In this document: piece by piece, positions 3,592 to 45,470 of the stretch
Numbering within the stretch: position 1 is the first letter of the stretch
How the letters are laid out: every line of letters starts with the position of its first letter
Origin: Borborobacter arsenicus
GTDB lineage: Bacteria; Pseudomonadota; Alphaproteobacteria; Rhizobiales; Rhizobiaceae
DNA length: 56,712 bases
Assembly: GCF_003934165.1 (NCBI RefSeq)
Contig: NZ_RKST01000028.1
Coordinates: 1-56,712, forward strand
Direction: 5' to 3'
Notes under the pieces: generated by a model
Seen by the model: only the letters and a program-made list of their open reading frames with translations
Told to the model about the DNA's origin: nothing
Database searches by the model: none
Made by a program: the position numbers and the translations under genes

Positions 3592-3607
3592 TTCTTGCTC
3601 CTCCTGC

Positions 3608-6520: not shown

Positions 6521-6527
6521 GGCGCCC

Positions 6528-6743: not shown

Positions 6744-6791
6744 CGTCGATCCTCCCATACTACCGGGCAGCCGATGCTGCTGTGCCGGCGA

Positions 6792-7454: not shown

Positions 7455-7495
7455 CGCTGACCTCGACTGTGCCGCTCAATGAGTGGGTAAAGTAA

Positions 7496-7533
7496 ATACT
7501 AGTCTCCCATCAGGGGATTGCAACAGTTACTGT
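7496..7533 (-). promoter_or_regulatory. Candidate promoter and palindromic site upstream of the TorD-fdo genes
   Basis: Read on the minus strand, TTGCAA (7518-7523) and TAGTAT (7496-7501) are separated by 16 bases, close to a sigma-70-type -35/-10 pair. Just upstream and partly overlapping the -35 is the exact palindrome ACAGT-A-ACTGT (7523-7533), a plausible regulator site. It lies in the only sizeable gap (105 bases) inside the minus-strand operon. Seen in sequence; function is inferred. Confidence 0.4.
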
Positions 7534-7559
7534 ACGCAAAGGTTTCGCCGTGATTTGCA

Positions 7560-8767: not shown

Positions 8768-8779
8768 AACGCGCTCCTG

Positions 8780-26564: not shown

Positions 26565-27551
26565 ATGGAACTCGTCGTCGCCCTTGGTCTGATCGTCTTC
26601 AAAGTCGCGCTGCTGATTGCGATCCTGCTACTCTTGCCCTTGCCGCTGACTTGGCTGGAACGCAAGATTGGGGGGCACATCCAGCAGCGGATGGGGCCGA
26701 TGCGCGTGGGGTGGCATGGGCTGCTGCAGCCGGTGGCCGACGGGATCAAGCTCTTGACCAAGGAAGACCATATCCCGGCCGAAGCCGATCGGTTCCTGTT
26801 CAAACTGGCGCCAATCCTCGCACTCGCCCCGCCATTCGTGGTGTTTGTCGCAATTCCTTTCGGGGAGAGCGTTTCGGTCCTAGGCACGGAGATCACGCTC
26901 TATGCCTCCAACATGAACGTAGCGCTCCTTTTCGTTTTTGCCGTGATCGGAATAGAGGTCTATGGCGTCATCTTTGGCGGCTGGGCCGCCAACAGCAAAT
27001 ACGCGGTCCTCGGTAGTCTCAGGACCTGCGCCCAGATGATCAGCTACGAAATTCCGATGGGCTTTGCTGTCATCGGCGTCGTCATGCTGGCGCAATCCAT
27101 GAGCCTGCTCGACATCGTGCGGGCGCAGGCCGATGTCTGGAACATTGTCTACCAGCCGATCGGGTTCTTCGTGTTCTTCGTGGCCGGACTGGCTAAGGCC
27201 CAGCGCATTCCCTTTGACCTGGCGGAAGCGGAAGGCGACCTGGGAGCGGGCTTCCATACCGAATACAGCGGCATCCGTTTTGCGTTCTTCATGGTCAGCG
27301 AATATGCCATCATGCTGCTGGTCTCGGTCCTTTCGGTGGTCCTGTTCTTCGGCGGCTGGAACGGCATCCTGATCCCACTGCCGCCATTCCTTTGGTTCCT
27401 GCTCAAGGTTGCGTTCTTCGTCTATCTGTTTATGTGGTTCCGCTTCACTTTCCCGCGCTACCGCTACGACCAACTGATGACGATCGGTTGGAAAGTCTTG
27501 CTTCCATTGTCGCTCGCGAACATAATTGTGACGGGTGTTGCCCTTCTTTAG
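26565..27551 (+). CDS. nuoH: NADH-quinone oxidoreductase subunit H (complex I)
   Basis: 328 residues from the ATG at 26565, which aligns with the usual start of rhizobial NuoH; an in-frame TTG at 26544 would add seven residues. Eight membrane helices are expected. NuoH forms the quinone chamber with NuoB and NuoD. Conserved blocks visible are LPLTWLERKIGGHIQQRMGP, GLLQPVADGIKLLTKED, YEIPMG and the quinone-loop region FDLAEAEGDLGAGFHTEYSG. The gene is on the plus strand with nuoI, away from the other nuo genes, an unusual separation since nuoG-H-I normally are neighbours. Confidence 0.95.
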   Translation: MELVVALGLIVFKVALLIAILLLLPLPLTWLERKIGGHIQQRMGPMRVGWHGLLQPVADGIKLLTKEDHIPAEADRFLFKLAPILALAPPFVVFVAIPFGESVSVLGTEITLYASNMNVALLFVFAVIGIEVYGVIFGGWAANSKYAVLGSLRTCAQMISYEIPMGFAVIGVVMLAQSMSLLDIVRAQADVWNIVYQPIGFFVFFVAGLAKAQRIPFDLAEAEGDLGAGFHTEYSGIRFAFFMVSEYAIMLLVSVLSVVLFFGGWNGILIPLPPFLWFLLKVAFFVYLFMWFRFTFPRYRYDQLMTIGWKVLLPLSLANIIVTGVALL

Positions 27552-27582
27552 AGGCCATGGCCACTCCCATGGCGAGACGGCG

Positions 27583-28149
27583 ATGTCACGCGTAACAGAC
27601 AGTAGCGGAAAATGGATCGGCTGGGCATTCTTCGCGGATCTCGGCAACGCCTTGGCGTTAACCTTCAGTTACATGTTCTCCAAATCCGTGACCATGCAGT
27701 ACCCGGACAAGGAAAAATGGTTGCCCTATTCACGCTACCGTGGACACCACTTCCTGAAACGCGACGAAGAAGGCGAAATCAAGTGTGTGGCCTGCGAGCT
27801 CTGTGCCCGGATTTGCCCCTGCTACTGCATCGAAGTCGTGCCCTACGAGGATGAGAAGGGCAATCGGCGCCCGGCAAAATTCGAGATCGACATGGCCCGA
27901 TGCCTCTTTTGCGGCTTATGCGAGGATGCTTGCCCGGCGGACGCGATTGCGCTTGGCCAGCAATATGAATTCTCGAGTTTTTCCTCGCATGACCTGGTCG
28001 TTGGGCGTGATGACCTGCTTGCCAAACCGGGCAAGGCAAATGCCGGCGGCGCCGTGGTCAGCGCCTGCTTGAACACCCAGGAAAATGTGCTCGTCAAGAC
28101 CAGCAAACAGCAGGGATACAACTGGTGGCGCAATATTCGACGGACGTGA
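27583..28149 (+). CDS. nuoI: NADH-quinone oxidoreductase subunit I, two [4Fe-4S]
   Basis: 188 residues from the ATG at 27583. It carries clusters N6a and N6b that pass electrons from NuoG to NuoB. The two ferredoxin motifs are CVACELCARICP and CLFCGLCEDACP. The first is followed by two extra Cys (CYC), which is not the usual pattern but leaves the cluster ligands intact. The N-terminal FSYMFSKSVTMQYPDK helix docks on the membrane arm. The C-terminal tail is longer than minimal NuoI. It starts 31 bases after nuoH and is followed by a CBS-domain gene 42 bases downstream. Confidence 0.95.
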   Translation: MSRVTDSSGKWIGWAFFADLGNALALTFSYMFSKSVTMQYPDKEKWLPYSRYRGHHFLKRDEEGEIKCVACELCARICPCYCIEVVPYEDEKGNRRPAKFEIDMARCLFCGLCEDACPADAIALGQQYEFSSFSSHDLVVGRDDLLAKPGKANAGGAVVSACLNTQENVLVKTSKQQGYNWWRNIRRT

Positions 28150-31079: not shown

Positions 31080-33671
31080 TCAACCTCCCAGTTCCAGAGG
31101 TCGTGCCCCGGATTCGGTCGTGGTGGCCATGGCGATGATCTCATGCGCCGGCTGCACCTCGACCGGGCACGGATATTCGCCCCGTTGCATCAGGCTGTTG
31201 AGGCGCAAGGCCCTGTAGTTCTCCGGCACGAAAACCAGACCCTCTGGAAAGCGCCTGTTGATCCTCAGCTTGGCCGTCAGCTCGCCTTGGGTCGACCGCA
31301 CCGCCACAGGCTTGCCATCGGTCAAGCCGAGCCGCGCGGCATCGCTCGAACTCATCTCGACATACGGGTCGTCGGCCACCGTGTTCAGTATCTCCGAGCG
31401 CTCGGAAAGATATCCGTTGTGGAATAGGCAGTTGCCAGTGATCAACATGAGCTGATCGCCGATGCTGGAGGCAGGCATCGGAACGAAGCTACTCATTTCC
31501 AGCGACGCCGGGGTTGCCTTGGTGAACGCGCCATCCGCTCCGATGTCCTCCTGCGTGATCCCTTGATAGGCTGGAACCAGCCGGGTGATCTCGTCAAGGA
31601 TTTCGCCCGACATCGATGGTCGCAGAACCTTGCCGCGGAGTGCCGCGACGAAATCGAAAATCGCCAGATTGCCACGCGCCTCGAAGGGCGGCTCGCGGAA
31701 TCTGGAGACCTTCTGGACCCTGCCCTCGTTGTTGGTAAATGTTCCGGATTCCTCGCCAAAACCTGCCGCAGGCAGGACGACATCGGCCAGTCCGGCCGTG
31801 TCAGTGAGGTAGGCGTCCTGCACGATCAGAAGATTGGCAGAGCCGAGCGCCCTTTGCACAAATCGGCGGTCGGGATAGGTTGTCAGCGGATCGCTCCCTA
31901 CTATGTAGAGCGCCCCCATCCGACGCTGCTCGCAGAGATCCAGCATGGTGTCGAAATCCGCCCCCGGTTCTGCCGGGACTTCTGCACTCCATCCTTGTTC
32001 GAAGAGGGCGCGGGCCGCATCGTCGCCAACCGCGCGCCACCCAGGCAGGGCTGCCGGCAGAACCCCCATGTCCCAGGCGCCAAGCTGGTTGGCGCGGTCG
32101 AAGAGAAACTGCACCGCCGGATCCTTGCCGAGTGCTCGAAGCAGTTGCAGGAGGCTGTTGAGTTGTTGCAGCGTCGCGCGCGCTTCCGGCGATCTCAGTA
32201 TGTCGGCACTGACAAGCAACGTAGCATTGCGGCCCTCCACAAGTGCTGCGGCCAGATGCTGCGGGCCGTCACCACTGATGGTAGCGACCGGCCCTCCATC
32301 CGAAACGATGTGCGCGGGCGTCTCGCCCGGCGCGGCTTGACCAGCGATGGCTACCAGTTCGGCCACCACTGCGGCCAGGGCTGCCGCTTCGGCGCCTGGC
32401 CGGATCCGGACGACCACCCGGGCATCGGCGTCCAGACGTGACGGCCGCGCCGAAAGCATGAGCAATCCAGCCTGCCGCTGCCGCACGCTATCCCGCAGCA
32501 GATATTCGGTCACCGGATTTTCCTCCGTGACGTTGCCACCGATGACCAGCACCCGATCGTTGCCGACCACCTGCTCCAGCGGCGCGCGCGTGTAGAAGTG
32601 AGCCACCTGCGGCCCCATCGTGTCGAAAGGCGTGGACCAGCGCGACGAACAATCGATGCTGTTGGTGCGCAATACAGTCCGCATCAGCTTCTGGAATTGA
32701 TAAAGGACCTCGTTGGGCAGACGCGGCGAAGCAAGCCCGCCTGCAAGCTTGTTCTCGACCGCCGACAGGCGCCGGCGCAGGTAGTCGCCGGCTTCATCCC
32801 AAGAGACCGGAACCAGCGTGCTGTCGCGACGGATCATTGGCCGCCTGATCCGGTCTCGGCTCTCTACGAAGTCGAGGCCGAAGCGGCCGCGCACGCAGAG
32901 CGTTTCGCGATTGACCCCATGTTCCCCCTTGGAGCGGACCCGCATGAACTCGCCTTTGCGCGCGCCGACGGTGAGTTGGCAACCGGTCCCGCAATGCGGG
33001 CAGATCGTGTCCGTCTCGGCCAGGTCCCAGGGCCGTGCCTTGTAGCGATAGGGGAAGCTCATCAGCGCGCCGACCGGGCAGACCTCGACGCAATTGCCGC
33101 ACTGGTCGCAAGTGGCGAGACTACCTTCGAAGCCAGTGACGGCGGTATCCATACCCTTCTCGACCGTTCCCAGGGCAACCGCACCGACCACCTCCTCGCA
33201 CATGCGCACGCAACGCTGGCATTGGATGCAGCGGTTGACATTCATGATGATGACAGGGCTGAGGCGGATGTCCCTGGAATGGAACACGCGCTTGACGTCA
33301 TGGAACCCGCTTTTTCGCGGCCCATAGGCCATCACCATGTCCTGAAGCTCGCATTCGCCGCCCTTATCGCAGATCGGGCAATCGAGGGGATGATTGGCGA
33401 GCAGCATGTCGAGCATCGAAGAGCGCGTTTCCTCGATCAGCGGCGTGTTCGTATGCACCACCATGCCGTCGGTCACCACTGTGGCGCAGGAGGGCTGCAA
33501 CCGCCTCTGCCCTGCTATCTCCACCAGGCACATGCGGCAGGAAGCCAGCGCTGGTAGCCGCTTCAGATAGCAGAAGGTCGGAATCTCGATGCCTAGCGTC
33601 TGTGCCGCTTGCAGCACTGTAGAGCCGGCCTCCACTTCAAGCTCGTGCTCATCTATCGTGATGCGAACCAT
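31080..33671 (-). CDS. nuoG: NADH-quinone oxidoreductase subunit G, long (E. coli-type) form
   Basis: 863 residues. Carries the electron chain from NuoF to NuoI. N-terminal [2Fe-2S] Cys residues are in CYLKRLPALASCRMC. They are followed by the His-type cluster (CPICDKGGEC region) and two [4Fe-4S] sets (CIQCQRCVRMC, CDQCGNCVEVCPVG). A fourth motif, CPHCGTGC, begins the molybdopterin-oxidoreductase-like domain and fits the N7 cluster of E. coli NuoG. The housekeeping alphaproteobacterial (mitochondrial-type) NuoG is about 690 residues and lacks N7. The long form argues that this set belongs to a second, separately acquired complex I. Confidence 0.95.
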   Translation of the reverse strand: MVRITIDEHELEVEAGSTVLQAAQTLGIEIPTFCYLKRLPALASCRMCLVEIAGQRRLQPSCATVVTDGMVVHTNTPLIEETRSSMLDMLLANHPLDCPICDKGGECELQDMVMAYGPRKSGFHDVKRVFHSRDIRLSPVIIMNVNRCIQCQRCVRMCEEVVGAVALGTVEKGMDTAVTGFEGSLATCDQCGNCVEVCPVGALMSFPYRYKARPWDLAETDTICPHCGTGCQLTVGARKGEFMRVRSKGEHGVNRETLCVRGRFGLDFVESRDRIRRPMIRRDSTLVPVSWDEAGDYLRRRLSAVENKLAGGLASPRLPNEVLYQFQKLMRTVLRTNSIDCSSRWSTPFDTMGPQVAHFYTRAPLEQVVGNDRVLVIGGNVTEENPVTEYLLRDSVRQRQAGLLMLSARPSRLDADARVVVRIRPGAEAAALAAVVAELVAIAGQAAPGETPAHIVSDGGPVATISGDGPQHLAAALVEGRNATLLVSADILRSPEARATLQQLNSLLQLLRALGKDPAVQFLFDRANQLGAWDMGVLPAALPGWRAVGDDAARALFEQGWSAEVPAEPGADFDTMLDLCEQRRMGALYIVGSDPLTTYPDRRFVQRALGSANLLIVQDAYLTDTAGLADVVLPAAGFGEESGTFTNNEGRVQKVSRFREPPFEARGNLAIFDFVAALRGKVLRPSMSGEILDEITRLVPAYQGITQEDIGADGAFTKATPASLEMSSFVPMPASSIGDQLMLITGNCLFHNGYLSERSEILNTVADDPYVEMSSSDAARLGLTDGKPVAVRSTQGELTAKLRINRRFPEGLVFVPENYRALRLNSLMQRGEYPCPVEVQPAHEIIAMATTTESGARPLELGG

Positions 33672-33698: not shown

Positions 33699-34964
33699 CT
33701 AGTGGAAGGAACACCTCTGCTCCTCGATATGGGCGGCGAACTCATGTTCGAAATGTTCCAGGGCCGCCCGCAGGCCCATCGCAGCACCGTCACCCAAAGC
33801 GCAGAACGTGTTGCCGAAAATACCCTTGCAGAGAGCTTGAAGCTGGGCCACGTCGCCCGGCTCACCTTGCCCTGCCTCGACCCGGCGCAGCACCTTCACG
33901 ACCCAATTCAACCCCTCACGACACGGCGTGCACTTGCCGCAGGATTCATGATGGAAGAACTCGACGATGCGGGTAGCGACCTTGACCATGCAGGTCGTGT
34001 CATCGATCACGATCACCCCGGCCGAGCCGAGCATCGAGCCGGCTGCCGCGAGGGAATCGAAGTCCATTCCAACGTCAAACCCGCTCTCCGGTATGACCGG
34101 CGCCGACACGCCGCCTGGGATGATCGCCTTGATCTTGCGGCCCGGCAACGGCCCGCCGGCGTGGCCATCCACCAGTTCGCGCAACGGTATGCCCATCGGA
34201 AGCTCATAAAGGCCTGGCTTGCGCACCTGCCCGCTGAGGCAATAGAGCTTCGGGCCCGGGCTCTTTTCCGGGCCGATGCCGCGGAACCAATCAGCCCCGC
34301 GTATCACGATGTGCGGCACGCAAATCAGGGTTTCGACGTTGTTGATCACCGTAGGGCTGGCGTAGAGCCCCTCGACCGCGGGAAATGGCGGCTTGAGACG
34401 CGGCTGGGCGCGCTTGCCTTCCAGCGAGTCAAGCATGGCGGTCTCCTCGCCGCAGATATACGCGCCGGCGCCGCAATGGATGTGGACGATGAAATTGAAA
34501 TCCGACCCCAGGATGTGCGTTCCCAGATAGCCCTTGGCATGGGCTTCCGCGATCGCCTGCTCCAGCCGCCGGATTGCCAGCACGTACTCTCCACGAATGT
34601 AAACATAGGCGGTTTGCGCGCCGATCGCGTAACCGCTGATCGCCATTCCCTCGATCAACTGGTGCGGGTCACGCTCCATGATGATGCGGTCCTTGAATGT
34701 GCCCGGCTCGCCCTCGTCGGCGTTGCAGCACAAATATTTCGGTTTGCCGGCCTGCTTCGGCACGAAGCTCCATTTCATCCCCGTCGGGAAACCGGCCCCA
34801 CCGCGACCACGCAGGTTGGATTTCTTGACAAGCTCGATGATCTCGTCGGGTGTGTGCTTGCGCAGTGTGTGCGCCAACGCCCGGTAGCCACCTCCCGCCT
34901 CATACGCTGACAGCATATGACTGTCGGGCACATCCACGTTCCTGAGAAGCACCGGCTCGAACAC
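33699..34964 (-). CDS. nuoF: NADH-quinone oxidoreductase subunit F (NADH/FMN site)
   Basis: 421 residues from a GTG at 34964, four bases after the nuoE stop with GGGAG nine bases upstream; an ATG at 35000 would overlap nuoE by 32 bases and is less convincing. It binds NADH and FMN: GRGGAGFPTGMKW, the CCNADEGEPGTFKDR block and GAYICGEETAML are the expected nucleotide and flavin motifs. The N3 cluster uses SCGKCTPCREG and a late Cys in NTFCALGDGA. All visible key residues are present, so this complex should use NADH. Confidence 0.94.
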   Translation of the reverse strand: MFEPVLLRNVDVPDSHMLSAYEAGGGYRALAHTLRKHTPDEIIELVKKSNLRGRGGAGFPTGMKWSFVPKQAGKPKYLCCNADEGEPGTFKDRIIMERDPHQLIEGMAISGYAIGAQTAYVYIRGEYVLAIRRLEQAIAEAHAKGYLGTHILGSDFNFIVHIHCGAGAYICGEETAMLDSLEGKRAQPRLKPPFPAVEGLYASPTVINNVETLICVPHIVIRGADWFRGIGPEKSPGPKLYCLSGQVRKPGLYELPMGIPLRELVDGHAGGPLPGRKIKAIIPGGVSAPVIPESGFDVGMDFDSLAAAGSMLGSAGVIVIDDTTCMVKVATRIVEFFHHESCGKCTPCREGLNWVVKVLRRVEAGQGEPGDVAQLQALCKGIFGNTFCALGDGAAMGLRAALEHFEHEFAAHIEEQRCSFH

Positions 34965-34968
34965 GGCA

Positions 34969-35481
34969 CTACACTCCCGACAATCCTGCGGAGGCAACAT
35001 GGACGTCAGCCCCCTGCCCTGCGGCGGCGCGCAACCTGTCCAAGAGCGCGTCGATCCGCGCGATGTCCAGGTTGCCATGATAGTCGTCGCCGACCTGCAT
35101 CACCGGCGCCATCTCGCAGGCACCAAGGCATTCGACGGTCGACAAGGTGAACAGCCTATCCGACGTCGTGTCGCCGTTCCTGATGCCCAGCACCGCCTCC
35201 ATGTGGCTCAGCAAGACTTCCGATCCGCACAGTATGCAGGAGACGTTGTCGCACAGTTGCAGGTGGAACATGCCCACCGGCTCGGTGTGGAAGAGAGTGT
35301 AGAAGGTTGCCAGTTCGTATACCCAGATTCGCTCGACGCCGAGGACCTCGGCTACCTCTTCCAGCACCGGGCGAGGCAAATGACCATACTCCCTCTGCGC
35401 GATCAGGAGAGCGGGCATAATGGCGGACCGCCGGTCTGGATACCGTTCTGCCGCTGTCTCGATCTCTTCGCGCATGCCCAT
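34969..35481 (-). CDS. nuoE: NADH-quinone oxidoreductase subunit E, [2Fe-2S]
   Basis: 170 residues, thioredoxin-like fold carrying cluster N1a. The helical N-terminus (about 1-70) includes YGHLPRPVLEEVAEVLGV. The cluster ligands are in LCDNVSCILCG and ECLGACEMAP, matching the C-x4-C ... C-x3-C arrangement. Length is normal. The gene begins 15 bases after nuoD and is closely joined to nuoF (4-base gap with the preferred nuoF start). Confidence 0.94.
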   Translation of the reverse strand: MGMREEIETAAERYPDRRSAIMPALLIAQREYGHLPRPVLEEVAEVLGVERIWVYELATFYTLFHTEPVGMFHLQLCDNVSCILCGSEVLLSHMEAVLGIRNGDTTSDRLFTLSTVECLGACEMAPVMQVGDDYHGNLDIARIDALLDRLRAAAGQGADVHVASAGLSGV

Positions 35482-35496: not shown

Positions 35497-36711
35497 CTAC
35501 TTGTCCACCTCGGCCATCACCGGGTCGAGGCTACCGAGAACAGCGATCATATCCGCCAGGTAGCGCGCATTGCTGACCCCGAAGAGCGCCTGGAGGTTGA
35601 CGAAGGACGGTGCCCTGACCTTCATCCGGAACGGTTTTTCCGATCCGTCGCTGATGATATAGAATCCGAGCTCGCCCTTTGGTGCCTCGATTGCCGAATA
35701 GACCTCGCCCTTCGGCACCTGGAAGCCATAGGCCGCGAGATCGAAATGCTGGATCAGTGCCTCCATTGAACAGTGCACCCTGTCCTTGTCGACCGGAAAG
35801 GCGATGGTCGGCATGTCGATCTGGAACGGCCCGTTGGGCATCTGGTCGAGGCATTGTTCGATGATTCGGATGCTCTCGCGCATTTCCTCGACCCGGCACT
35901 GCCAGCGCGCATAGCAGTCGCCTTCATCGCGCGTGATAACGTTGAACTCGAGCCGATCGTAGATTTCATAGGGCTCGTCGCGCCGGATGTCCCAATCGAC
36001 ACCCGAGGCGCGCAGGTTGGGCCCGCTCAGCCCGAGATCGATACCGTCCTGCGCCGAGATCATGCCGATCCCCTGCGTGCGCTTCAGGAACACACGATTG
36101 TTCTCGACCAGCCGCTCATAGTCGCGGATGCGGTTCGGAAAGATCTCGCAGAACTCCCTGATCTTGGGGAAGAAGCCGTCGGGGAGGTCTTCGCGCACGC
36201 CGCCGACACGACAGAAGGAGGTGTGCATGCGCGCCCCACTGATCATCTCCAGGAGGTCCATAATCATTTCGCGCTCACGCATGGCGTAAAGCAGCGCGGT
36301 CATGGCGCCCAGGTCCATGGGCAACGCACCTGTGATCAGGAGATGGCCGGAGATTCGAGCCAGTTCGGCCATCAGCACGCGTATATATTGCGCGCGGATC
36401 GGCGCTTCGATGCCCAGGAGCTTCTCCACGGCAAGCGCGAAAGCCAGATTGTTGGAAGGCGGGCACAGATAGTCGAGGCGGTCGGTCAGCGGAAAGATCT
36501 GGGTATAGGTGAAGCTCTCCGCCAGCTTTTCGGTGCCTCGGTGAAGATAGCCGATATGCGGATCGACACGCGCGACATACTCGCCCTCCAGCTCAAGCAC
36601 GAGCCGCAACACTCCATGCGTGCTGGGATGCTGCGGACCGAGGTTCAGCAGCACCTCCTTGATGGCGGTGGTCTCACCTTCCGGCCTGCTGAGTTCCGTG
36701 ACTTCGGTCAT
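35497..36711 (-). CDS. nuoD: NADH-quinone oxidoreductase subunit D (49-kDa type)
   Basis: 404 residues. Separate from NuoC, unlike the fused NuoCD of E. coli. Quinone-site blocks are present: LNLGPQHPSTHGVLRLVLELEGE with the catalytic His, and HIGYLHRGTEKLAE. DRLDYLCPPSNNLAFALAVEKL and the FNVITRDEGDCYAR segment are also typical. The C-terminus ends DMIAVLGSLDPVMAEVDK, the conserved final (D/E)xxD of the family. It starts 28 bases after nuoC. Confidence 0.95.
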   Translation of the reverse strand: MTEVTELSRPEGETTAIKEVLLNLGPQHPSTHGVLRLVLELEGEYVARVDPHIGYLHRGTEKLAESFTYTQIFPLTDRLDYLCPPSNNLAFALAVEKLLGIEAPIRAQYIRVLMAELARISGHLLITGALPMDLGAMTALLYAMREREMIMDLLEMISGARMHTSFCRVGGVREDLPDGFFPKIREFCEIFPNRIRDYERLVENNRVFLKRTQGIGMISAQDGIDLGLSGPNLRASGVDWDIRRDEPYEIYDRLEFNVITRDEGDCYARWQCRVEEMRESIRIIEQCLDQMPNGPFQIDMPTIAFPVDKDRVHCSMEALIQHFDLAAYGFQVPKGEVYSAIEAPKGELGFYIISDGSEKPFRMKVRAPSFVNLQALFGVSNARYLADMIAVLGSLDPVMAEVDK

Positions 36712-36739: not shown

Positions 36740-37276
36740 CTACGGAATGTCCCTGGTGGCGAGGTCCGGCTGCGTCGGCGGCTGGCCTTCGGCGCCAAAG
36801 GGATTAAGCTTGTCCCGGTAGCCCCGCAGCGGGAAATCCTTGCGCTGCGGGAAGCCCTCGAACCCTTCCCACATGTAGATCCGGCGAAGATCAGGGTGGC
36901 CCGTAAACCTGATCCCGTACATGTCCCAGGCCTCGCGCTCATGCCAGTTGGCGGTGCGCCACACGCTAGTCACGGAAGCGATGCGGGGCGGGTCGCCCAG
37001 GCGGCTTTTGATCCGAACACGCCATTTGTTCGGTAGTGAATAGAGATGGTACACCGCCTCATAGCGCGGTTTTTCGGGGTGATGGTCCACCCCGCAAATG
37101 TCGGACAGGAAATCAAAGCGCAGGGCCGGGTGCTCCTTCAGGAAGCGGCAAAGCTCGACGATTGCTTCCGGTGGCGCAGAGAAGGCATGGATGCCATGCG
37201 CGAAGCCGAGATTCTCCACTGCCCCGCCGAAGCGCTCGGCGATCAGGGAGGTGACAAGGGGCGTCTGGGAGCTCAT
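36740..37276 (-). CDS. nuoC: NADH-quinone oxidoreductase subunit C (30-kDa type)
   Basis: 178 residues from the ATG at 37276, which overlaps the nuoB stop by four bases. The family core is [20 protein letters not shown], then [50 protein letters not shown], the last part almost invariant in NuoC. Length is at the short end for the family. It links NuoB, NuoD and NuoI in the peripheral arm. Confidence 0.94.
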
Positions 37277-37776
37277 GGCGCTGCGACCCGCTCCAGCGGC
37301 GTCCCGGCCAGCGCCCGGGAATTCTTGATCTTCTCCTGCAGGATGAGGAAGCCGTGCATCAGCGCCTCGGGCCGTGGCGGGCAGCCGGGCACATGCACGT
37401 CCACCGGTACGAATGTCTCCGCCCCTTGCACGACGGCATAGGTGTTGTAGACCCCGCCCGAGATCGCGCAGGTGCCCATGGCGATGACCCAACGCGGCTC
37501 CGGCATCTGATCATAAAGCCGGCGCACGACCGGCGCGAACTTGCGTGTCACCGTGCCGGCAATGATCATAACGTCGGACTGGCGCGGCGAAGGCCGGAAC
37601 ACGACGCCGAACCGATCGAGATCGTAGCGCGCACAGCCGGCCGCGATCATCTCGATGGCGCAGCAGGCGATGCCGAAGGTTTCGGGCCACAGCGCTGACC
37701 TTCGGCTCCAGTTGATCACACTGTCTGCCGTGGTGAACAGCACGCTGTCGCGGAGGGTGTTGCCTACTTCTCCCAT
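37273..37776 (-). CDS. nuoB: NADH-quinone oxidoreductase subunit B (cluster N2)
   Basis: 167 residues from the ATG at 37776, overlapping nuoA by 13 bases. It holds the terminal [4Fe-4S] cluster N2 that reduces quinone: the tandem cysteines in [10 protein letters not shown], a third in MGTCAISGG and a fourth in [11 protein letters not shown] are all present. The [11 protein letters not shown] and [16 protein letters not shown] blocks are conserved. The C-terminal tail (LERVAAP) is short. Confidence 0.95.
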
Positions 37777-38129
37777 TCCAGCGCTCCCTTCAGCCAGGCG
37801 TAGGCGAAGCCCACGAGAAGCAGCAGCATGAAGACGAACATCTCGATATAGCCGACCAACCCAATCTCTTTCAGCACAACCGCCCACGGAAACAGGAACA
37901 TCGTCTCCACGTCGAAGACCACGAGCAGAATTGCGAGGATGAAGAACTGCACCCTGAAGCGGCCTCCGGCGGCTTCGCCTGCCGGGTCCATGCCGCATTC
38001 ATAGGGCATGTTCTTTGCCGGATAGGGATTTGCAGGACGCAACAGGGACGAAACAAACAGCGTCGCCACCGCCACCAGGACAATTCCGGCGGTCATAAAA
38101 AGAACCGGCAGGAACTCCATTCCAGCCAT
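37764..38129 (-). CDS. nuoA: NADH-quinone oxidoreductase subunit A
   Basis: 121 residues, three membrane helices (about 7-30, 60-83, 90-113). The loop between helices 1 and 2 carries the conserved Y-E-C-G motif in [10 protein letters not shown], whose Cys lies near the quinone pocket, and the second helix starts [23 protein letters not shown] with the conserved acidic Asp-Val-Glu. Start of the A-to-G block, 152 bases downstream of nuoN. Confidence 0.94.
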
Positions 38130-38281: not shown

Positions 38282-39721
38282 TCAGCCGCCGAACACGGAA
38301 TTTTGCGCAAGCTTCAGAAACCACGCCGGAAACAGCCCTATGCCGATGGTCCCGGCAGCAGTGACGGCGAGCGTGGCGCGGACCGATGGCGTCAGCGCCG
38401 GATGGAACGGGCCTTCCGGCTCACGCATGTAGATCAACATGACGATGCGGATGTAGAAATAGGCGGCAACCGCACTCAGCAGCACCGCAATCACCGCCAA
38501 TGTGACAAAACCGCGCTCGACGAGCGCGACCAGAATGTAGAACTTGGCGAAGAAACCGGCCGTCGGGGGTATGCCGGCCAGCGAGAACAGATAGATCAGC
38601 ATCAGAAGCGCCAGCCCCGGATGCAATTTGGCGAATCCTTTGTAGTCTTCGATGATCTCGCCTGAGAAAGTGCCGTTCCGCATCATGATGATGGTGCTGA
38701 AGATGCCCAGGTTCATGAACGTGTAGATCAGCAAATAGAGCATGACGCTGGCGATGCCATCGGCCCCGCCGGCCACGACGCCGAGCATGGCGAAGCCGGC
38801 ATGGGCAATGCTGGAATATGCCAGGAGGCGCTTGAAGTTGTCCTGCACCAGCGCCACGAAGCTGCCGAGCGCCATCGTCACAATCGCGACAACGCCGATG
38901 ATGATCCATGCATCCGAGGCAACGACCAGTGGATTGAGGAACACCCGCAGGATCACCGCGAACCCCGCCGCCTTCGGGCCTACCGACATGAAGGCCGTGA
39001 TCGTTGTCGGCGCGCCTTCATAGACGTCCGGCAGCCACATGTGGAATGGCACAGCGCCGACTTTGAAAGCCAATCCCGCAACGATGAAGACCACAGCCAG
39101 AAGCAAGCCGGGATCGCCCGGATTGCCGGCTGCGGCAGCCGCTATCTGATCCAGTCGCGTTGTTCCGGTGAGCCCATAGACCAGCGAGACGCCGTAAAGG
39201 AAAATCGCCGTCGCGGCCCCACCGAGGATCACATATTTCAGCGCCGCTTCATTGGATCGCCGCTGCCATCGCAGGAAGCCGGTCAGCACATAGGTACAAA
39301 GAGCCATCAACTCGAGGCCTACGTAAATCGACAGCAGGTCTGTCGCAGAGGCCATGATCATCATTCCTGAAAGCGCGAAGAGCAGCAGCACATAGTATTC
39401 GCTGCTCTCGATCTCTTCGATTTCGGCATATTTTCGCGACAGCAGGAACGTCAGGATGGTCGCAAGGTAGAACAAGGCCTTGAAGAAGGCCGCGAAACGG
39501 TCGCCGATGAACATGCCCGCATAGGCCGGCCGCACTTCATTGGCGAGCATAAAAGTCGCTAAAGCGGCGGCCAGCACGATCGCGACCGAACCCCAGACCA
39601 GGAGGTGTCCTCGGCCCTGCGGCACAATTTGTCCCAGGATCAGCAGAGCGCAGGCCCCGATGACCACGACGATCTCGGGCAGGCTCGCAAGCGCCGATTG
39701 GAGAAGGGCGACGGCGCTCAT
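38282..39721 (-). CDS. nuoN: NADH-quinone oxidoreductase subunit N (antiporter-like)
   Basis: 479 residues, about 14 membrane helices. Proton-pump subunit nearest NuoK. The TM5 Glu is in DLLSIYVGLELMAL, the TM7 Lys in GLAFKVGAVPFHMWLPDVYEG and the TM12 region in LIYLFSLAGIPPTAGFFAKFY; all proposed proton-path residues appear present. It overlaps nuoM by four bases. Confidence 0.95.
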   Translation of the reverse strand: MSAVALLQSALASLPEIVVVIGACALLILGQIVPQGRGHLLVWGSVAIVLAAALATFMLANEVRPAYAGMFIGDRFAAFFKALFYLATILTFLLSRKYAEIEEIESSEYYVLLLFALSGMMIMASATDLLSIYVGLELMALCTYVLTGFLRWQRRSNEAALKYVILGGAATAIFLYGVSLVYGLTGTTRLDQIAAAAAGNPGDPGLLLAVVFIVAGLAFKVGAVPFHMWLPDVYEGAPTTITAFMSVGPKAAGFAVILRVFLNPLVVASDAWIIIGVVAIVTMALGSFVALVQDNFKRLLAYSSIAHAGFAMLGVVAGGADGIASVMLYLLIYTFMNLGIFSTIIMMRNGTFSGEIIEDYKGFAKLHPGLALLMLIYLFSLAGIPPTAGFFAKFYILVALVERGFVTLAVIAVLLSAVAAYFYIRIVMLIYMREPEGPFHPALTPSVRATLAVTAAGTIGIGLFPAWFLKLAQNSVFGG

Positions 39722-41187
39722 TGGCTGCCTCCGTGCACCTGCTCAAGGAGATAATTCACCGATGCGTCGATGATGCCGAGAAAGGGCTTCGGATAAAGTC
39801 CGACCCAAAGCACCAGGACGGCCAATGGCAGGATCGCCGTCAATTCGCGGAGGTTCACATCATAAACTTTGGACCGCGCGCCTAGCCGGAGCGGGCCAAG
39901 CGCGACTTTCCTGTACATGCCAAGCAGATATGCTGCGCCCAGCAAGGCTCCCAGAACAGCAACCGCGCCGACGGCGACATTGGCCGCAAACCCACCCGAC
40001 AGCACCAACAATTCGCCGATGAACGAATTCGTCCCTGGCAGCGCCATCGAAGACAGTGTGAAAAGCGCAAGAAAGGAGGTGTAGACCGGCGCCGCCTTCA
40101 TCAGCCCGCCATACTCGGCGATGCTGCGGGTATGGGTCCGCTCGTAGATCAGGCCCACGAACAGGAACAACGCGCCCGTCGTGACGCCATGATTGAACAT
40201 TTGCAGGATGCCACCTTCGAGCCCGCGCAGGTTCAGCGCGAAGATCCCAAGCGTGACGAAACCCATGTGGCTGATGCTGGAATAGGCCACTAGCTTCTTC
40301 AAGTCGTCCTGGGCGAGAGCAAGCAATCCTCCATAAACGATGGCAAGCGCGGAAAGGACAAGCATCAACGGCGAATAATGCACCGACGCCTCCGGGAGCA
40401 TCGGCAACGAAAACCTCAAGAATCCGTATGCGCCCATCTTCAGGAGCACGGCGGCAAGGATGATGCTGCCGGCCGTTGGCGCCTGTACATGGGCGTCCGG
40501 TAGCCAGGTATGAACCGGAACCATCGGCACCTTGACGGCAAACGCGATCAGGAACGCGAAAAACAACCAGGACTGGACCCGGAACGGCAGATCCTGCGCC
40601 GTCAGGGCAAGGATGTCGAAGGTGCCGCCGCCTTCGATATACAGAACAATGACGCCGATCAAAAACAGGAGGCTGCCCGCTAGCGTATAGAGGAAGAACT
40701 TGAACGCCGCATAGACCCGGCCGTCGCCGCCCCAGACACCAATGATGACATACATGGGGATCAGCATCGCCTCCCAGAAAACGTAGAACAGGAACAGGTC
40801 GAGCGCGCAAAACACCCCCAGCATCAGCGCCTGCATGGCAAGCAGGCTGATCATGAACTCCTTCATTTTGCGGTCGATCGCCACCCATGAGGCGAGCACG
40901 CAAATCCAGCCAAACAACGCCGTGAGGAATACGAAGAGAACGCTGATCCCGTCGACGCCAAGCGCGTAGGTAATCCCGAGTGCGGGCACCCACGGATGCA
41001 TCTCGGTGAACTGCATCTCGTGGGTGGTGGTGTCAAAGCCGGCCAGCACCGCGATGGCGAGAAGGAAGTCGAGAACGGTGACACCCAGTGCCGTCCACCG
41101 CACCGCACCGTCGTTGCGCAGAAACATCAGAACCACCGCTCCAGCGGCAGGTATGAACACGATGAGGCTGAGCAGCGGAAACGCCAT
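39718..41187 (-). CDS. nuoM: NADH-quinone oxidoreductase subunit M (antiporter-like)
   Basis: 489 residues from the ATG at 41187, eight bases after the upstream gene. Antiporter-like pump: TM5 Glu in FLFYVFWEAMLIPMYV, TM7 Lys in FAVKVPMVPVHTWLPDAHVQAPT with its His, and a TM8 Lys in LLKMGAYGFLRFS. The LVAYSSISHMGFVTLG block is highly conserved in NuoM. It overlaps nuoN by four bases, so translation is coupled. Confidence 0.95.
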   Translation of the reverse strand: MAFPLLSLIVFIPAAGAVVLMFLRNDGAVRWTALGVTVLDFLLAIAVLAGFDTTTHEMQFTEMHPWVPALGITYALGVDGISVLFVFLTALFGWICVLASWVAIDRKMKEFMISLLAMQALMLGVFCALDLFLFYVFWEAMLIPMYVIIGVWGGDGRVYAAFKFFLYTLAGSLLFLIGVIVLYIEGGGTFDILALTAQDLPFRVQSWLFFAFLIAFAVKVPMVPVHTWLPDAHVQAPTAGSIILAAVLLKMGAYGFLRFSLPMLPEASVHYSPLMLVLSALAIVYGGLLALAQDDLKKLVAYSSISHMGFVTLGIFALNLRGLEGGILQMFNHGVTTGALFLFVGLIYERTHTRSIAEYGGLMKAAPVYTSFLALFTLSSMALPGTNSFIGELLVLSGGFAANVAVGAVAVLGALLGAAYLLGMYRKVALGPLRLGARSKVYDVNLRELTAILPLAVLVLWVGLYPKPFLGIIDASVNYLLEQVHGGSQ

Positions 41188-41195
41188 CGCGCCCC

Positions 41196-42956
41196 CTACT
41201 GCCACGCTACGGCGAATATGGCGGCGCCCGCGATCAGTCCGGCGATCATCGCCAAGGCGTAGTGGGTCACGACGCCAGTCTGGAGCCGCCGCAACGCCCC
41301 GCCGCCGCGCAGGATCGCCCCAGCGATGCCATTCACGATGGCGTCGATGCGGTTGAGATCGATCCACAGGCCGACCCGCGCCGTCCCATGCAGGAAGGGC
41401 AGCGCCACCGTCTCGGACAGGTTGCTTACCGCCTTCTCGTAGCGCGCCAGCGGATTTTCGGCGAGCCACATGAAGCGTCGCGCGGCCTTGCGGTAGAACC
41501 AGTCGGTGTCAAGGCTGATCGTGTTTTCAGGGTCGAGCGCCCGCAGGAACAGCACAAACCCCAGTGCGGTGAACATCAGCACGCCAAGGCTTTCGGTGAT
41601 ATGGACACCCGTATAGGGTTCGAAGTCGACCGGATATGGCAGGAGCGCATAAAGCGGCTGGGGAAACACGCCGATCGCAATGCAAAGTGCTGCAGCCATT
41701 CCCATCGCAATCAGCATGTTGCGAGGCGGCTCCCGCGCCTCAAGCCCCCGGTCCGTACCGAAGAACATGTAGTAGGGAAGTTTGAGCCCGGTGTGCAGGA
41801 ACGTCCCCGACGAAGCCATCGTCAGCGCCAGCACGACCATGGCGCGGTGATCCTGTCCGGCGGCGGCCACCACCATCGACTTGGTGACGAAGCCGGAAAA
41901 GAACGGAAACGCCGAGATCGCGAAGGCGCCGACCATGTAGAGAGCCACAGTCAGCGGCATGGTCTTGTAGAGCCCGCCGAGCTCAGTGAGCTTGCGGCGC
42001 CCGGTGACATAAATTACCGCTCCCGCGCCCATGAACAGCAGGGCCTTGTAGAGGATATGCGCGAAGGCATGGCTGGTGGCTCCGTTCACCGCCATCTCGG
42101 TCCCAATGCCGACACCAGCCACCATGTAGCCCACCTGGCTCACGATGTGATAGGCGAGCAGCCGCCGGCAATCGTTTTCCAGCACCGCGTAGATGACGCC
42201 GTAGAGCGCCATTGCCGTCCCAAACCAGACCAGAAGCTCGGTCCCCGGAAACGCCCGCGCCAGCACATAGACGGCAGTCTTGGTGGTGAAGGCGCTCATG
42301 AACACGGCGCCGGTGACGGTCGCCTCCGGATAGGCGTCGGTCAGCCAGGCGTTGAGCGGCGGCACTGCGGCGTTGAGCATGAAGCCGGCAAGGATCAGGT
42401 AGGCGCCAATGCCCATCTCTGTCTCGATCGGACCAAAGAGCATCGAGCCCGAGGCGAGTCCGTGAATAATGATGCCGCCGAGCAGCACGACGCCACCCGT
42501 GATATGGACCATAAGATAGCGGAACCCGGCCCGGATCGCCTGCTCGCCGCGCTGGGCGAAGACCAGATAGGCAGAGGCGAACGCCATGCCCTCCCAAAAC
42601 AGGAACAGCGTAAGGTAGTCTCCGGCGAACACCACGCCGAGGGCGCTGCCGACATAGACGAATGCCGCCACATGCTGGCCGGCGCGGGTCAGGTGCAGCG
42701 CATAGACCATGCCGATCAGCGCCATGATCGTGAAAACGGTGGCGAAGACGATGCTTAGCCTGTCAACTTTCGCAAACAGGATTTCCTGGCCGATGAACGG
42801 CGCCGCGCCATAGCTGCCCGGTTGCATCGTGAATACGGCGAGGAGCGCCAGCGCCGGGATCAGCAGCAGATAGGCTTTACGGATCGGCCCGTTCAGCAAG
42901 GGGATCGGCAGGGCGCCGAGAATGAACAGCAGGGCAGGATGGATAAACTCAGTCAT
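41196..42956 (-). CDS. NuoL-position antiporter-like subunit with lateral helix (MrpD/NuoL type)
   Basis: 586 residues, about 14 membrane helices plus a C-terminal extension. The TM5 Glu is present in LTLFLFWEGMAFASAYL. The TM7 site reads LNAAVPPLNAWLTDA where pump subunits usually have GK...P(L/F)H(A)WLPDA, so the expected Lys and His are both Asn. A Lys remains in TTKTAVYVLARAF. The end (WIDLNRIDAIVNGIAG and ALRRLQTGVVTHYALAMI) matches the lateral helix and last membrane segment of NuoL, so it probably occupies the distal NuoL position. Databases often call such proteins Na+/H+ antiporter subunit D. Confidence 0.82.
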   Translation of the reverse strand: MTEFIHPALLFILGALPIPLLNGPIRKAYLLLIPALALLAVFTMQPGSYGAAPFIGQEILFAKVDRLSIVFATVFTIMALIGMVYALHLTRAGQHVAAFVYVGSALGVVFAGDYLTLFLFWEGMAFASAYLVFAQRGEQAIRAGFRYLMVHITGGVVLLGGIIIHGLASGSMLFGPIETEMGIGAYLILAGFMLNAAVPPLNAWLTDAYPEATVTGAVFMSAFTTKTAVYVLARAFPGTELLVWFGTAMALYGVIYAVLENDCRRLLAYHIVSQVGYMVAGVGIGTEMAVNGATSHAFAHILYKALLFMGAGAVIYVTGRRKLTELGGLYKTMPLTVALYMVGAFAISAFPFFSGFVTKSMVVAAAGQDHRAMVVLALTMASSGTFLHTGLKLPYYMFFGTDRGLEAREPPRNMLIAMGMAAALCIAIGVFPQPLYALLPYPVDFEPYTGVHITESLGVLMFTALGFVLFLRALDPENTISLDTDWFYRKAARRFMWLAENPLARYEKAVSNLSETVALPFLHGTARVGLWIDLNRIDAIVNGIAGAILRGGGALRRLQTGVVTHYALAMIAGLIAGAAIFAVAWQ

Positions 42957-43203
42957 AATAGTCCTCGCGCCGCATCAGCCCGCCCTGATGGCCGAGGAAC
43001 TTGGAAACGAAGATCAGCAGCACGCACGAGCCAAAGCCGTAGATAGCCGACCAGCCCGGCAGACGGTCCCACAAATATTCGGTGTGCTCGCGTAGAACCA
43101 ATATGTCGGCGATCACGATCAGGGCAAGCGCCAGATAGAACAGCCGGCGGCGCCGGCTCTCATATTTCGCGTCACCAAAGAAATCGACGACGCGCTTGAT
43201 CAT
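42949..43203 (-). CDS. Small two-helix membrane protein of the complex I membrane arm
   Basis: 84 residues from the ATG at 43203, overlapping the upstream pump gene by four bases (ATGA) and the downstream one by eight. Two membrane helices are visible, about residues 21-36 (LFYLALALIVIADILVL) and 52-68 (AIYGFGSCVLLIFVSKF). Flanking residues are charged, with a basic loop (KYESRRRR) and a Glu/Asp/Tyr tail. It has no match to any canonical Nuo subunit that I know. Its position between two antiporter subunit genes, and the tight overlaps, make it a likely structural partner in an extended pump module. Confidence 0.8.
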   Translation of the reverse strand: MIKRVVDFFGDAKYESRRRRLFYLALALIVIADILVLREHTEYLWDRLPGWSAIYGFGSCVLLIFVSKFLGHQGGLMRREDYYD

Positions 43204-44663
43204 CTGACCACTCCTTCCGCCAGGGCAAGGAAGTAGCCGGGGAAGATGCCCATTGCCACCGACAGGGCGGCGGTCGCGACCAGCGGGATCGTGACCAGCG
43301 GAATTTCGTGAACAGTCGCCGGGCTCTCCAACGCCTCCGTCCTGAAAAAGGCGACATAGCTGACCGGCAGGAAATAGGCGGCATTCAGGACCGAACTCAC
43401 CAATATGACGATCAGGAATGCGATTTCGCCCGCCTCCACCGAGCCCAGCGCCAGATACCACTTGCTGACGAAGCCCGCAGTCGGAGGTGTCCCTATCATG
43501 CTGAGTGAGGCGACAAAGAAGGCCCCCATCGTCCAGGGCAGCCTGCGGCCGATGCCGGCCATTTCGCTGATGTTGCGCTTGCCAGACGCGCAATAGATCG
43601 ACCCGGCGCAGAAAAAGAGTGTGATCTTGGAAAATGCATGCGCCGCAATGTGGATGATCCCCCCTACCATCGCGACTGGCGACAAAAGAACCGCGCCCAG
43701 CACGATGTAGGACAACTGGCTGACCGTCGAATAGGCGAGCCGTGCCTTAAGGTCGTCGCGCGTCAGCGCATAGATGGACGCCATCAGGATGGTGAACGAA
43801 ACCAGATAGGCCGTTGCGATACCGAGCCCCAGCCCGTTCATCAGGCCCGCACCGAAGATATGGAACACCACGCGTAGCACGCAAAATACGCCCATCTTGA
43901 CCACGGCCACTGCATGCAAGAGTGCGCTGACCGGTGTTGGTGCCACCATCGCCGCAGGCAGCCAGGCATGCATCGGCATGATCGCTGCCTTGGCAAAGCC
44001 GAAGAGATAGCAAAAATAGATAACGGTCAGCAGCGGGGCCGAGGCATCAACGGTCGCCAGCAGTCCCCCCTTCACAAAGTCGAGCGACCCGGCAAGCTGG
44101 TAAGTCAGCGCCAGCGCGGCAAGAAGCACGCTTTTCGACGCGCCCATCAAATAGACGAGGTACTTGCGGCTACCCGTCCACCCCTCTTCGTCCTCGTGGT
44201 GGTAGACGAGCGGATAGGTAACCAGGCTGAGCACCTCGTAGAAGATCACCAGCGTGAACAAATTGGCCGCGAAGGCGCCCCCAACCGCCGCTGCCAAGCT
44301 GGTGGCGAAGCAGGCGAAGAAGCGGGTCTGCGCGTGCTCGTTCAAGTGCCGCATGTAGCCGATCGAATAGATCGCCGCCACGACCCACAGCAGCGACGAG
44401 ACCGTGGCAAACACCATGCCGAGCGCATCGGCCCGCAAAGCGAACTCAACCCCCGGCAGGATCTCGAACAGGCGCAACTCAACCGTCCCGCCCGCCAGCA
44501 CCGTGGGCGCCATCGAGGCGACAATTGCGAGCATGGCCATCGCCGCCAATGGCGAGACGGCATCGCGGAGCTTGTGGCGGTTGTTCAGCAGGAGAACGGC
44601 AAGGGCCGCCAGGGCTGCGACCGCGACGGCAAGCAGTGGCCGGATCGATGTCACAGGCTCCAA
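43200..44663 (-). CDS. Extra antiporter-like subunit (NuoM/MrpD-like)
   Basis: 487 residues, about 14 membrane helices. TM5 Glu lies in NLFTLVIFYEVLSLVTYPLV and is followed by an unusual acidic stretch (HHEDEEGWTGS). TM7 keeps Lys and His in FGFAKAAIMPMHAWLPAAM, and TM8 keeps a Lys in AVVKMGVFCVLRVV. It lacks a NuoL-like lateral helix, so it resembles a second NuoM or MrpD. It lies four bases after nuoK. With NuoN, NuoM and the NuoL-position protein it makes four pump-like subunits in the set. Confidence 0.85.
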   Translation of the reverse strand: MEPVTSIRPLLAVAVAALAALAVLLLNNRHKLRDAVSPLAAMAMLAIVASMAPTVLAGGTVELRLFEILPGVEFALRADALGMVFATVSSLLWVVAAIYSIGYMRHLNEHAQTRFFACFATSLAAAVGGAFAANLFTLVIFYEVLSLVTYPLVYHHEDEEGWTGSRKYLVYLMGASKSVLLAALALTYQLAGSLDFVKGGLLATVDASAPLLTVIYFCYLFGFAKAAIMPMHAWLPAAMVAPTPVSALLHAVAVVKMGVFCVLRVVFHIFGAGLMNGLGLGIATAYLVSFTILMASIYALTRDDLKARLAYSTVSQLSYIVLGAVLLSPVAMVGGIIHIAAHAFSKITLFFCAGSIYCASGKRNISEMAGIGRRLPWTMGAFFVASLSMIGTPPTAGFVSKWYLALGSVEAGEIAFLIVILVSSVLNAAYFLPVSYVAFFRTEALESPATVHEIPLVTIPLVATAALSVAMGIFPGYFLALAEGVVR

Positions 44664-44667
44664 GCCG

Positions 44668-44970
44668 CTATCCTTTCATCATGGTGACGTCGTCGACCTT
44701 GAGGGTGGACTTGTTCCTCACGAGGGCGACCAGTATGCCGAGCGCGATGGCCACCTCCGCCGCAGTGATTGCAATGACGAAGATCGCGAATATCTGCCCG
44801 CGGAAGTCGCCGTAGTGGCGGCCGAAAGCGATGAAATTGATGTTGACCGAGTTGAGAAGCAACTCCAGCGACATCAGCACGACGAGGATGTTGCGCCTGA
44901 GCAGCACGCCCGCCGCCCCGATGACGAACAGGACCACTGCGAGAACGATGCTCCACCAGAGCGGCACCAT
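44668..44970 (-). CDS. nuoK: NADH-quinone oxidoreductase subunit K
   Basis: 100 residues, three membrane helices. The Glu residues of helices 2 and 3 that form the proton path are present ([20 protein letters not shown] and [16 protein letters not shown]). It begins on the last base of the nuoJ stop (1-base overlap) and is followed four bases later by the extra pump gene rather than by nuoL. Confidence 0.94.
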
Positions 44971-45470
44971 CAGCCCCGCTCCTTTCGCGCCAGCATTATG
45001 GCACCGACCAAGGCGGCCAGCAGGATAATGGAGGCGACTTCAAACGGCAGCAGATAGTCGGCGAAAAGCGTCGTGCCGAGTTGTCTGATCTCGCTGCCGT
45101 CGCTCTCGGCGAGGGAGCCCGTAGCTGAAAATTCGCTGCTCCAGTTGACCAGCACCAGCATCTCGACGCCGAGTAGGACGAGCAGCACCAGCGCCGGGAG
45201 ATTGCTGCCCGGCAAGAACCGCTGCAGCACCGCTTCGCGCACATCAACCATCATGATCACGAAAAGAAACAGGACCATGATCGCGCCGACATAGACGAAG
45301 ATCTGGATGACGGCGAGCAGTGGCGCCTCGAGCAGGACGAAGATTGCCGAGATTTGCAGGAAACACGCCATTAGCGCCAATGCGCTGTGAACGGGATTGC
45401 GCGCCAAGACCAAGGTCACGGCCGTGATCACGGACGCCATAGCGAACAGAAGAAACAGCCCCTGAACCAT
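44970..45470 (-). CDS. nuoJ: NADH-quinone oxidoreductase subunit J
   Basis: 166 residues, five membrane helices. Typical blocks are [52 protein letters not shown] split over helices 2 and 3, containing the pi-bulge region. First gene of the minus-strand nuo unit; no upstream nuo gene is present, so the operon promoter should lie in 45471-45946, shared with the divergent iol genes. An ATG-led start at 45470 is normal for the family. Confidence 0.94.

Follow-up and report, generated by a model that had tools for sequence, protein, structure and literature searches.

How does a respiratory complex I come to carry two unfamiliar pump-like proteins in the place of NuoL, and where did they come from? 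These questions are raised by a locus of Borborobacter arsenicus within the 56,712 nucleotides analyzed here (NZ_RKST01000028.1, positions 1–56,712, forward-strand numbering; hereafter the window), in which a minus-strand block at 45470–38282 reads nuoJ-nuoK-P487-P84-P586-nuoM-nuoN. P487 (43200–44663) and P586 (41196–42956) are antiporter-like proteins of 487 and 586 residues, and P84 (42949–43203) is an 84-residue membrane protein encoded between them. The explanation that we prefer, with a probability of roughly 0.7, is that the locus encodes a green complex I in which NuoL has been replaced by a P487-P84-P586 module of Mrp-operon origin, P586 being a chimera with a NuoL tail.

No protein in the scanned block reaches the cut-off of the NuoL model (TIGR01974, 407.5 bits), with P487 scoring 193 and P586 143, so the preliminary description, which credited the window with all 14 classical subunits, overstated the set by NuoL. 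NCBIfam places P487 in NF006236 (825 bits against a cut-off of 663) and P586 in NF009310 (787 against 564), families that both carry the label "antiporter subunit D", and the two proteins occupy the NuoL place between nuoK and nuoM, with P84 between them. The suggestion that the 487-residue protein is a second NuoM gives way to its NF006236 assignment; a second NuoM characterizes the separate Nitrospira "2M" type, which combines it with a lengthened NuoL and which we rejected here because just one block protein passes the NuoM cut-off and none passes that for NuoL. MrpB, MrpE, MrpF and MrpG are absent from the block, as nuoJ to nuoA leaves no room for them. On contig C1 of the same genome lies a canonical NuoL gene (874 bits), with those of NuoM and NuoN nearby, these being the three genes read there. 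A suspected kinship with the enlarged complex I of rhizobia proved right in substance: the locus corresponds to green complex I, where a pair of MrpD-like subunits takes the place of NuoL (PMC9040806, PMC7415380). Judged by its sequence, the window complex is a green complex I, an already published rare form that, in the accessible text, is described as having raised expression in symbiosis (PMC7415380) and as ancient (PMC7415380, PMC5419562).

The three inserted genes travel together. A P84 search gave matches in 42 of the 199 genomes of the order, and P84 lay between P487 and P586 homologues in all 30 loci retrieved, the window's own included (12 matched genomes gave no locus for this neighbor check). 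A P586-family search was used so that loci would not be chosen by P84; it returned 67 of 288 class genomes above cut-off, at 69 places, and the 78 class loci surveyed comprise the 68 places other than the window's plus 10 below cut-off. P84 was found in 74 of these, preceded by P487 and followed by P586. Of the four that remain, L163 is truncated at a contig end, while L158, L164 and L166 are uncut and, read by eye, each hold a small open frame in the gap, the one in L164 being without the C-terminal motif described below and possibly unrelated. The second sample was also chosen by P586 and held 80 named loci, the best 80 of 581; P84 stood directly before P586 in 79 of them, the exception (L222) beginning at a contig edge. 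The survey proposed in the preliminary description, of whether the 84-residue gene accompanies the extra pump, thus came out in its favor, the gene not being missing from most related clusters. The strict scripted order P487-P84-P586 was recovered in 73 of the 80 loci, and the remaining seven had a pump label swapped to MrpD (L174, L197, L241), split or doubled frames (L188, L224), or a cut (L187, L222). In L174, L197 and L241 the BLAST labels of MrpD and P487 trade order, which probably reflects the labeling of divergent pumps. Hosts in the named sample include Ca. Accumulibacter regalis, Magnetospirillum sp. SS-4, Haliea salexigens, Thiorhodococcus minor and Terasakiella brassicae, and P84 homologues also occur on 99 of 72,556 plasmid records (Sinorhizobium 67, Rhizobium 18, Ensifer 11, Phyllobacterium 2, Pararhizobium 1). 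Within the window's family, the full-length P586 form, with a match reaching residue 586, was present in 15 of 247 genomes, own included, and in another 15 of 247 the match ended at residue 492–512, apparently the Mrp form; both forms therefore seem to occur in one family. The full-length form is absent from the three other same-genus genomes listed, and together with the family count this indicates a patchy distribution.

Most homologues examined sit in Mrp operons, and the idea that the trio is confined to complex I was accordingly rejected. The free-standing operon runs MrpE, MrpF, MrpG, an MbhD/MbhE protein, MnhB, MrpC, MrpD, P487, P84, P586 (Pfam, from the L057 proteins and the MrpE of L055), the MbhD/MbhE protein resembling the MrpA C-terminal domain. 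Scripted assignment of the 78 class loci gave 72 Mrp settings, two complex I settings (L091 and L163, both outside the window's family) and four unassigned; the 80 named loci gave 70 Mrp, eight unassigned and two, L196 (950–11659) and L209 (1254–11689), that the script labeled complex I because canonical nuoM and nuoN lie upstream. In these two gammaproteobacterial loci MrpC and MrpD precede the trio, MrpC is about 2.2–2.5 kb downstream of nuoM and nuoN, and no Mrp E–G genes were detected between nuoM/nuoN and MrpC. In L131, otherwise an ordinary Mrp operon, P586 is followed on its own strand by a NuoM-like frame. The window's own genome has a further antiporter-like protein at contig C46:6202–6858 (L009; open frame of 534 residues), away from complex I and from the antiporter genes of contig C2, which may be DabB-like.

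Phylogenies place the complex I form close to these operons. In a tree of P487 plus P586 (92 of 98 loci and the window), the four complex I rows form one clade (support 100) whose sister is the pair of Mrp-form rows L093 and L043 (support 99). A further tree, rooted on MrpD, again nests the complex I P586 there among Mrp forms (support 100) and does not settle the placement of P487. Trees of the P586 body join the complex I form to its Mrp sisters with support of 99 in one (41 loci plus the window, with long or cut rows left out by name and the rest thinned by half, as for the P487 tree) and 100/99 in another (31 chosen loci plus the window). The preliminary description had named two signs that would speak against the 487-residue protein as part of complex I, grouping with free-standing Mrp antiporters and failure to co-purify with the complex; it does group with Mrp operons, which is the first half of that pair.

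P586 itself looks chimeric, with an Mrp-type body and a NuoL-like stretch of about 55 residues at its end. Four complete complex I bodies score 578–588 on an Mrp body model and 91–113 on a NuoL body model. Compared with the Mrp sister L093 in blocks of 25 residues, P586 is 32–84% identical up to residue 500 and 0–12% identical after it; past residue 500 the maxima are 24%, in one block, for L043 and 20% for L179. Two NuoL tail models, one of 25 non-alpha tails and one of 18 alpha and E. coli tails, give the final 70 residues of five complex I forms 41.9–52.4 and 29.7–39.4 bits, respectively, versus at most 9.1 and 9.0 for 161 Mrp forms; these five tails reach 1.7–3.5 on the Mrp tail model. In building the NuoL tail models, 13 of 31 longest open frames were dropped as being without a NuoL ending, and 25 tails were added. 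Relatives of the NuoM and of the NuoL tails were sampled within the phylum Pseudomonadota (299 genomes), where the nearest NuoM proteins outside the green form come from non-alpha members, at 54–58% identity in the loci given. The gene upstream of those NuoM genes reads as canonical NuoL in 25 of 26 loci, the remaining one being a wrong frame, and the NuoL tails of these same loci are the best outside tail matches: L303 matches the L091 tail at 50% over 54 residues (55.5 bits; best Mrp match, 17.7), and the window tail has a best NuoL match of 45.1 versus a best Mrp match of 20.0. As the NuoL alignment of P586 begins at residue ~529–541, the join may lie nearer to residue 530 than to 500. The likely grafted tail, residues ~530–586, would thus cover the end of the lateral helix and the last membrane helix (41199–41369), and residues ~501–529 (41370–41456), part of the longer helix, differ from the nearest Mrp forms and by eye are like the Mrp form L237. 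Elsewhere in the sample, contig C34:9486–11312 of genome G484 holds a NuoL-like frame with five in-frame TGA codons, either a pseudogene or a case of a different genetic code.

The lateral helix of P586 is also unusually long. Counted from the conserved Trp that opens it to the last residue before the Gly preceding the final membrane helix (transmembrane helix 16, TM16), it spans 74 residues in all five complex I forms; the NuoL helix has 54 residues in 34 of the 40 proteins measured (40 of 43 were measurable; range 49–54), and the helix of Mrp-form P586 has a median of 55 (range 38–57; 118 of 161 measured, L237 not among them). A statement of "no helix insertion", taken from the comparison with Ca. 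Manganitrophus in the accessible text of PMC9040806, was rejected, since the helix is longer than in NuoL and in the measured Mrp forms. One of the forms left unmeasured by script, L237 (8424–10202, 593 residues), lies in an Mrp operon and, counted by hand, has a helix of about 88 residues; it is the one Mrp form among 152 whose whole tail exceeds 95 residues. Its stretch after the helix start is by eye much like that of the complex I form, its last helix is Mrp-type, scoring 39 bits with the Mrp tail model and less than 0 with either NuoL model, and its body falls outside the complex I group. L237 disposes of the proposal that the helix is longer than in any Mrp form, and with it we dropped the view that the join itself lengthened the helix. 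Lengthening has therefore taken place outside complex I on at least one occasion, and NuoL need not be the source of the opening part of the long helix; L237 may be an intermediate or a parallel case. AlphaFold gives one helix at 482–526 for the Mrp form L179 (mean predicted local distance difference test score, pLDDT, 91) and a broken helix at 485–557 for the window P586 (mean 87, under 50 at 518–533 and 544–561), and the top Foldseek matches of the latter model in PDB are MrpA and NuoL-type chains. Our lean is toward the simplest reading, in which the helix would be a strap spanning one unit more than that of NuoL, with P586 at the tip.

Pump sites were read by alignment to E. coli NuoL, NuoM and NuoN, using site numbers for GluTM5, LysTM7, LysTM8 and LysTM12 that we take to be the E. 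coli ones (8 of 29 NuoL rows were wrong frames or gapped). P487 keeps all four residues in four of four complex I forms, and its TM8 carries a NuoL-like His. P586 keeps GluTM5, LysTM8 and LysTM12, and its LysTM7 site is Asn in four of four complex I forms, so that the canonical GluTM5/LysTM7 pair is missing; at this site the Mrp forms have Asn in 102 of 161, Lys in 56, Arg in two and Ser in one. On these residues P487 looks like a working pump with NuoL traits and P586 like a strap-bearer with an altered core. Because P586 carries Asn where the TM7 lysine would sit, the pumping of a fifth proton cannot be taken for granted, and five protons per NADH (reduced nicotinamide adenine dinucleotide) is a hypothesis that does not follow from gene number. 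The altered TM7 site makes that claim directly testable.

P84 behaves like a genuine gene and evolves under purifying selection: its ratios of nonsynonymous to synonymous substitution rates (dN/dS) against two close relatives are 0.15 and 0.19, similar to those of P586 (0.13 and 0.13), a third P84 comparison being saturated (dS 3.05). It has hydrophobic stretches within residues ~18–44 and ~47–77 and ends in R-R-E-D-Y-Y-D. This ending, [KR]-x-[DE]-x-Y-Y or close to it, recurs in 155 of 170 P84 sequences, with the second Tyr kept as Tyr in 97%; overall identity is about 29–48% across most lineages. Searches of Pfam at E values up to 0.001, of NCBIfam at up to 1e-5 and of PDB sequences at up to 10 found no match, and on an S. 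meliloti pSymA plasmid P84 is annotated "hypothetical protein". The distribution of charges suggests that both ends lie inside the cell. The earlier view of the small protein as a structural part tied to the extra pump stands as far as its steady place between two pump genes goes, and its docking is putative.

What the computation shows is the module's identity and steady order, the nested P586, the tail likeness, the helix length and the Asn at the LysTM7 site; the order of the arm, the docking of P84 and the proton number are our inferences. The operon product would be an NADH:quinone oxidoreductase with a three-gene module in place of NuoL, drawn from a free-standing Mrp-type antiporter operon in which the module occupies the place of the N-terminal half of MrpA. 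The last ~55 residues of P586, that is, the end of the lateral helix and the last membrane helix, would come from a NuoL and would let P586 still dock where the NuoL tail docks. Quinone reduction would drive NuoN, NuoM and then the two new units, with the longer lateral helix strapping an arm of four units in which P487 most simply sits between NuoM and P586, and with P84 as a hairpin, both ends inside, that holds P487 to P586. Going further, and at somewhat short of even odds, P84 could be an unrecognized obligatory subunit of a distal module common to a widespread class of Mrp antiporters and green complex I; the latter would have arisen a single time, when the module displaced the NuoL body while the NuoL tail was kept, giving a natural chimera able to strap a four-unit arm. 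As P586 is without the TM7 lysine, its unit might then move another ion or relay force, so that the larger arm need not pump a fifth proton.

Several observations weigh against this picture and give its competitors room. Just five complex I tails were scored, and in NCBIfam the tails of the window and of L091 match NF009310 best (40 and 37 bits), with NuoL-type models next at no more than 27 and 30 bits; the L057 and L093 tails matched no NuoL-type model there. It is improbable, in our view, that no graft took place and that the tail changed fast where it was, converging on NuoL through a shared docking site, although the likeness extends over only ~45–58 residues, selection for one motif could come from the docking site on neighboring subunits, and L237 offers a parallel for the opening part of the longer helix. 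Set against convergence are the fall in identity to the Mrp sisters at about residue 500, the tail scores of 42–52 bits against no more than 9.1 for 161 Mrp forms, and the finding that the best outside matches are NuoL tails of non-alpha Pseudomonadota whose NuoM is the nearest in the sample. The MrpD-rooted tree carries a warning of long branches meeting, and the P487-only tree misses the grouping with the same two Mrp sisters, a grouping that is nevertheless not rejected (approximately unbiased test, p 0.207). An ancient green form from which Mrp operons took the trio, as its description in the accessible text of PMC7415380 and PMC5419562 might imply, strikes us as quite improbable given the nesting of the complex I P586 in the Mrp forms (that warning applying, and the P487 part being undecided) and the greater diversity and commonness of the Mrp forms.

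The arrangement of the arm is less secure. L237 has its long helix in an Mrp operon, so lengthening is not confined to complex I and may precede the graft; the AlphaFold model of the window P586 is weak in the tail; and helix length alone fixes neither the arm order nor the number of units spanned. We hold it somewhat less likely than not that the same parts stand in another order, with P586 beside NuoM in the NuoL place and P487 and P84 beyond it, at the far tip outside the strap. Such an order would suit a P586 that has a lateral helix and last membrane helix as NuoL does and finds MrpA and NuoL-type chains as its top structural matches, and it would suit a gain of 20 residues, short of the 26 given in PMC9040806 for a single additional pump. 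The L237 helix, longer again yet set in an Mrp operon with the ordinary complement of pumps, lowers the odds for our arm order; however, spanning NuoN and NuoM requires just the 49–54 residues of NuoL, and P586 has 74 in five of five. As for P84, it is unlikely to be an assembly or insertion helper for the P487/P586 pair instead of a permanent subunit: it is small, about 29–48% identical across most lineages and without a solved relative, as a helper might be, whereas its steady position, its C-terminal motif and the overlapping genes in the window point the other way while being compatible with a helper too. Very improbable is a trio that forms its own antiporter here, outside complex I. The same trio does occur in Mrp operons without nuo genes, yet in the window it lies between nuoK and nuoM, in a block with no MrpB, E, F or G gene and no other NuoL, and its last subunit bears a NuoL-like tail found only in the complex I setting.

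The remaining genes of the locus complete the picture of a rearranged operon, in which nuoJ–N precede nuoA–G and nuoH–I stand separately on the opposite strand. The minus-strand block opens with nuoJ (44970–45470; 166 residues; PF00499, 135 bits) and nuoK (44668–44970; 100 residues; PF00420, 100 bits). P487 starts with TTG, as it does at the matching place in three relatives, and the overlaps of four bases between P487 and P84 and eight between P84 and P586 agree with those in the preliminary description, as does the insertion of the P487 and P84 genes between nuoK and the gene in the NuoL position. There follow nuoM (39718–41187; 489 residues; TIGR01972, 636 bits), which has the usual GluTM12, and nuoN (38282–39721; 479 residues; TIGR01770, 502 bits). 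The genes nuoA–G continue on the minus strand at 38129–31080: nuoA (37764–38129; PF00507), nuoB (37273–37998; PF01058) and nuoC (36740–37492; PF00329), the latter two given as open frames whose true starts are probably internal, nuoD (35497–36711; PF00346), nuoE (34969–35481; PF01257), nuoF (33699–35078; PF01512, PF10589) and nuoG (31080–33671; PF00384, PF10588 and others). On the plus strand, at 26544–28149, lie nuoH (26544–27551; PF00146, 398 bits) and nuoI (27535–28149), which had no Pfam match at a 1e-10 threshold and is named for two 4Fe-4S motifs in its translation and its place adjoining nuoH. Further away, 1927–11102 reads as a formate dehydrogenase operon, with a 970-residue alpha subunit, iron-sulfur and cytochrome subunits, and accessory genes, all named from translations.

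The complex itself was already known; what is added here is the P84 linkage, the Mrp-operon kin, the P586 tail, the helix length and the Asn at the TM7 site. In print, green complex I is presented as possibly pumping more, and the accessible text does not state how the extra unit is built in. Nor do the accessible portions of its published accounts mention Mrp-operon kin or a longer helix, and neither a small subunit nor a NuoL-like tail on an MrpD-like protein appears in the literature on extra-pump and green complex I, MrpD duplications and lateral-helix insertions within this scope, which takes in few subscription papers and is thus weak evidence of absence. If the chimera and the P84 module are borne out, the locus would be a natural swap experiment on the complex I tail and lateral helix, and the module would be a portable antiporter tip, equipped with a small subunit of its own and spread over Alpha-, Beta- and Gammaproteobacteria.

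Among known systems, the closest is green complex I, which shares with the window two MrpD-like subunits for NuoL, a rearranged gene order, a canonical complex I alongside and a home in Rhizobiaceae; we found no difference in the accessible accounts, a comparison that does not extend to the exact published gene order. Complex_I_3 of Ca. Manganitrophus likewise has two MrpD-like subunits, nearest to the rhizobial ones, but differs in having five pump-like subunits and a further lateral-helix insertion of 26 residues (PMC9040806). The Nitrospira-type 2M complex I (Chadwick et al. 2018) resembles the window complex, as far as its accessible description goes, in a fourth pump-like subunit and a lengthened lateral helix, although in that type a second NuoM supplies the extra unit and NuoL is the lengthened subunit. 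The group 3 Mrp operon of Ca. Nitrospira alkalitolerans has two NuoM/L-like genes after mrpD (PMC7784846), and in proteobacteria a similar layout, the basis on which the Nitrospira genes were compared, carries P487-P84-P586. Such operons differ from the window complex in being without a redox arm, and the P586 of the forms tested has another tail and, save for one exception, a shorter helix.

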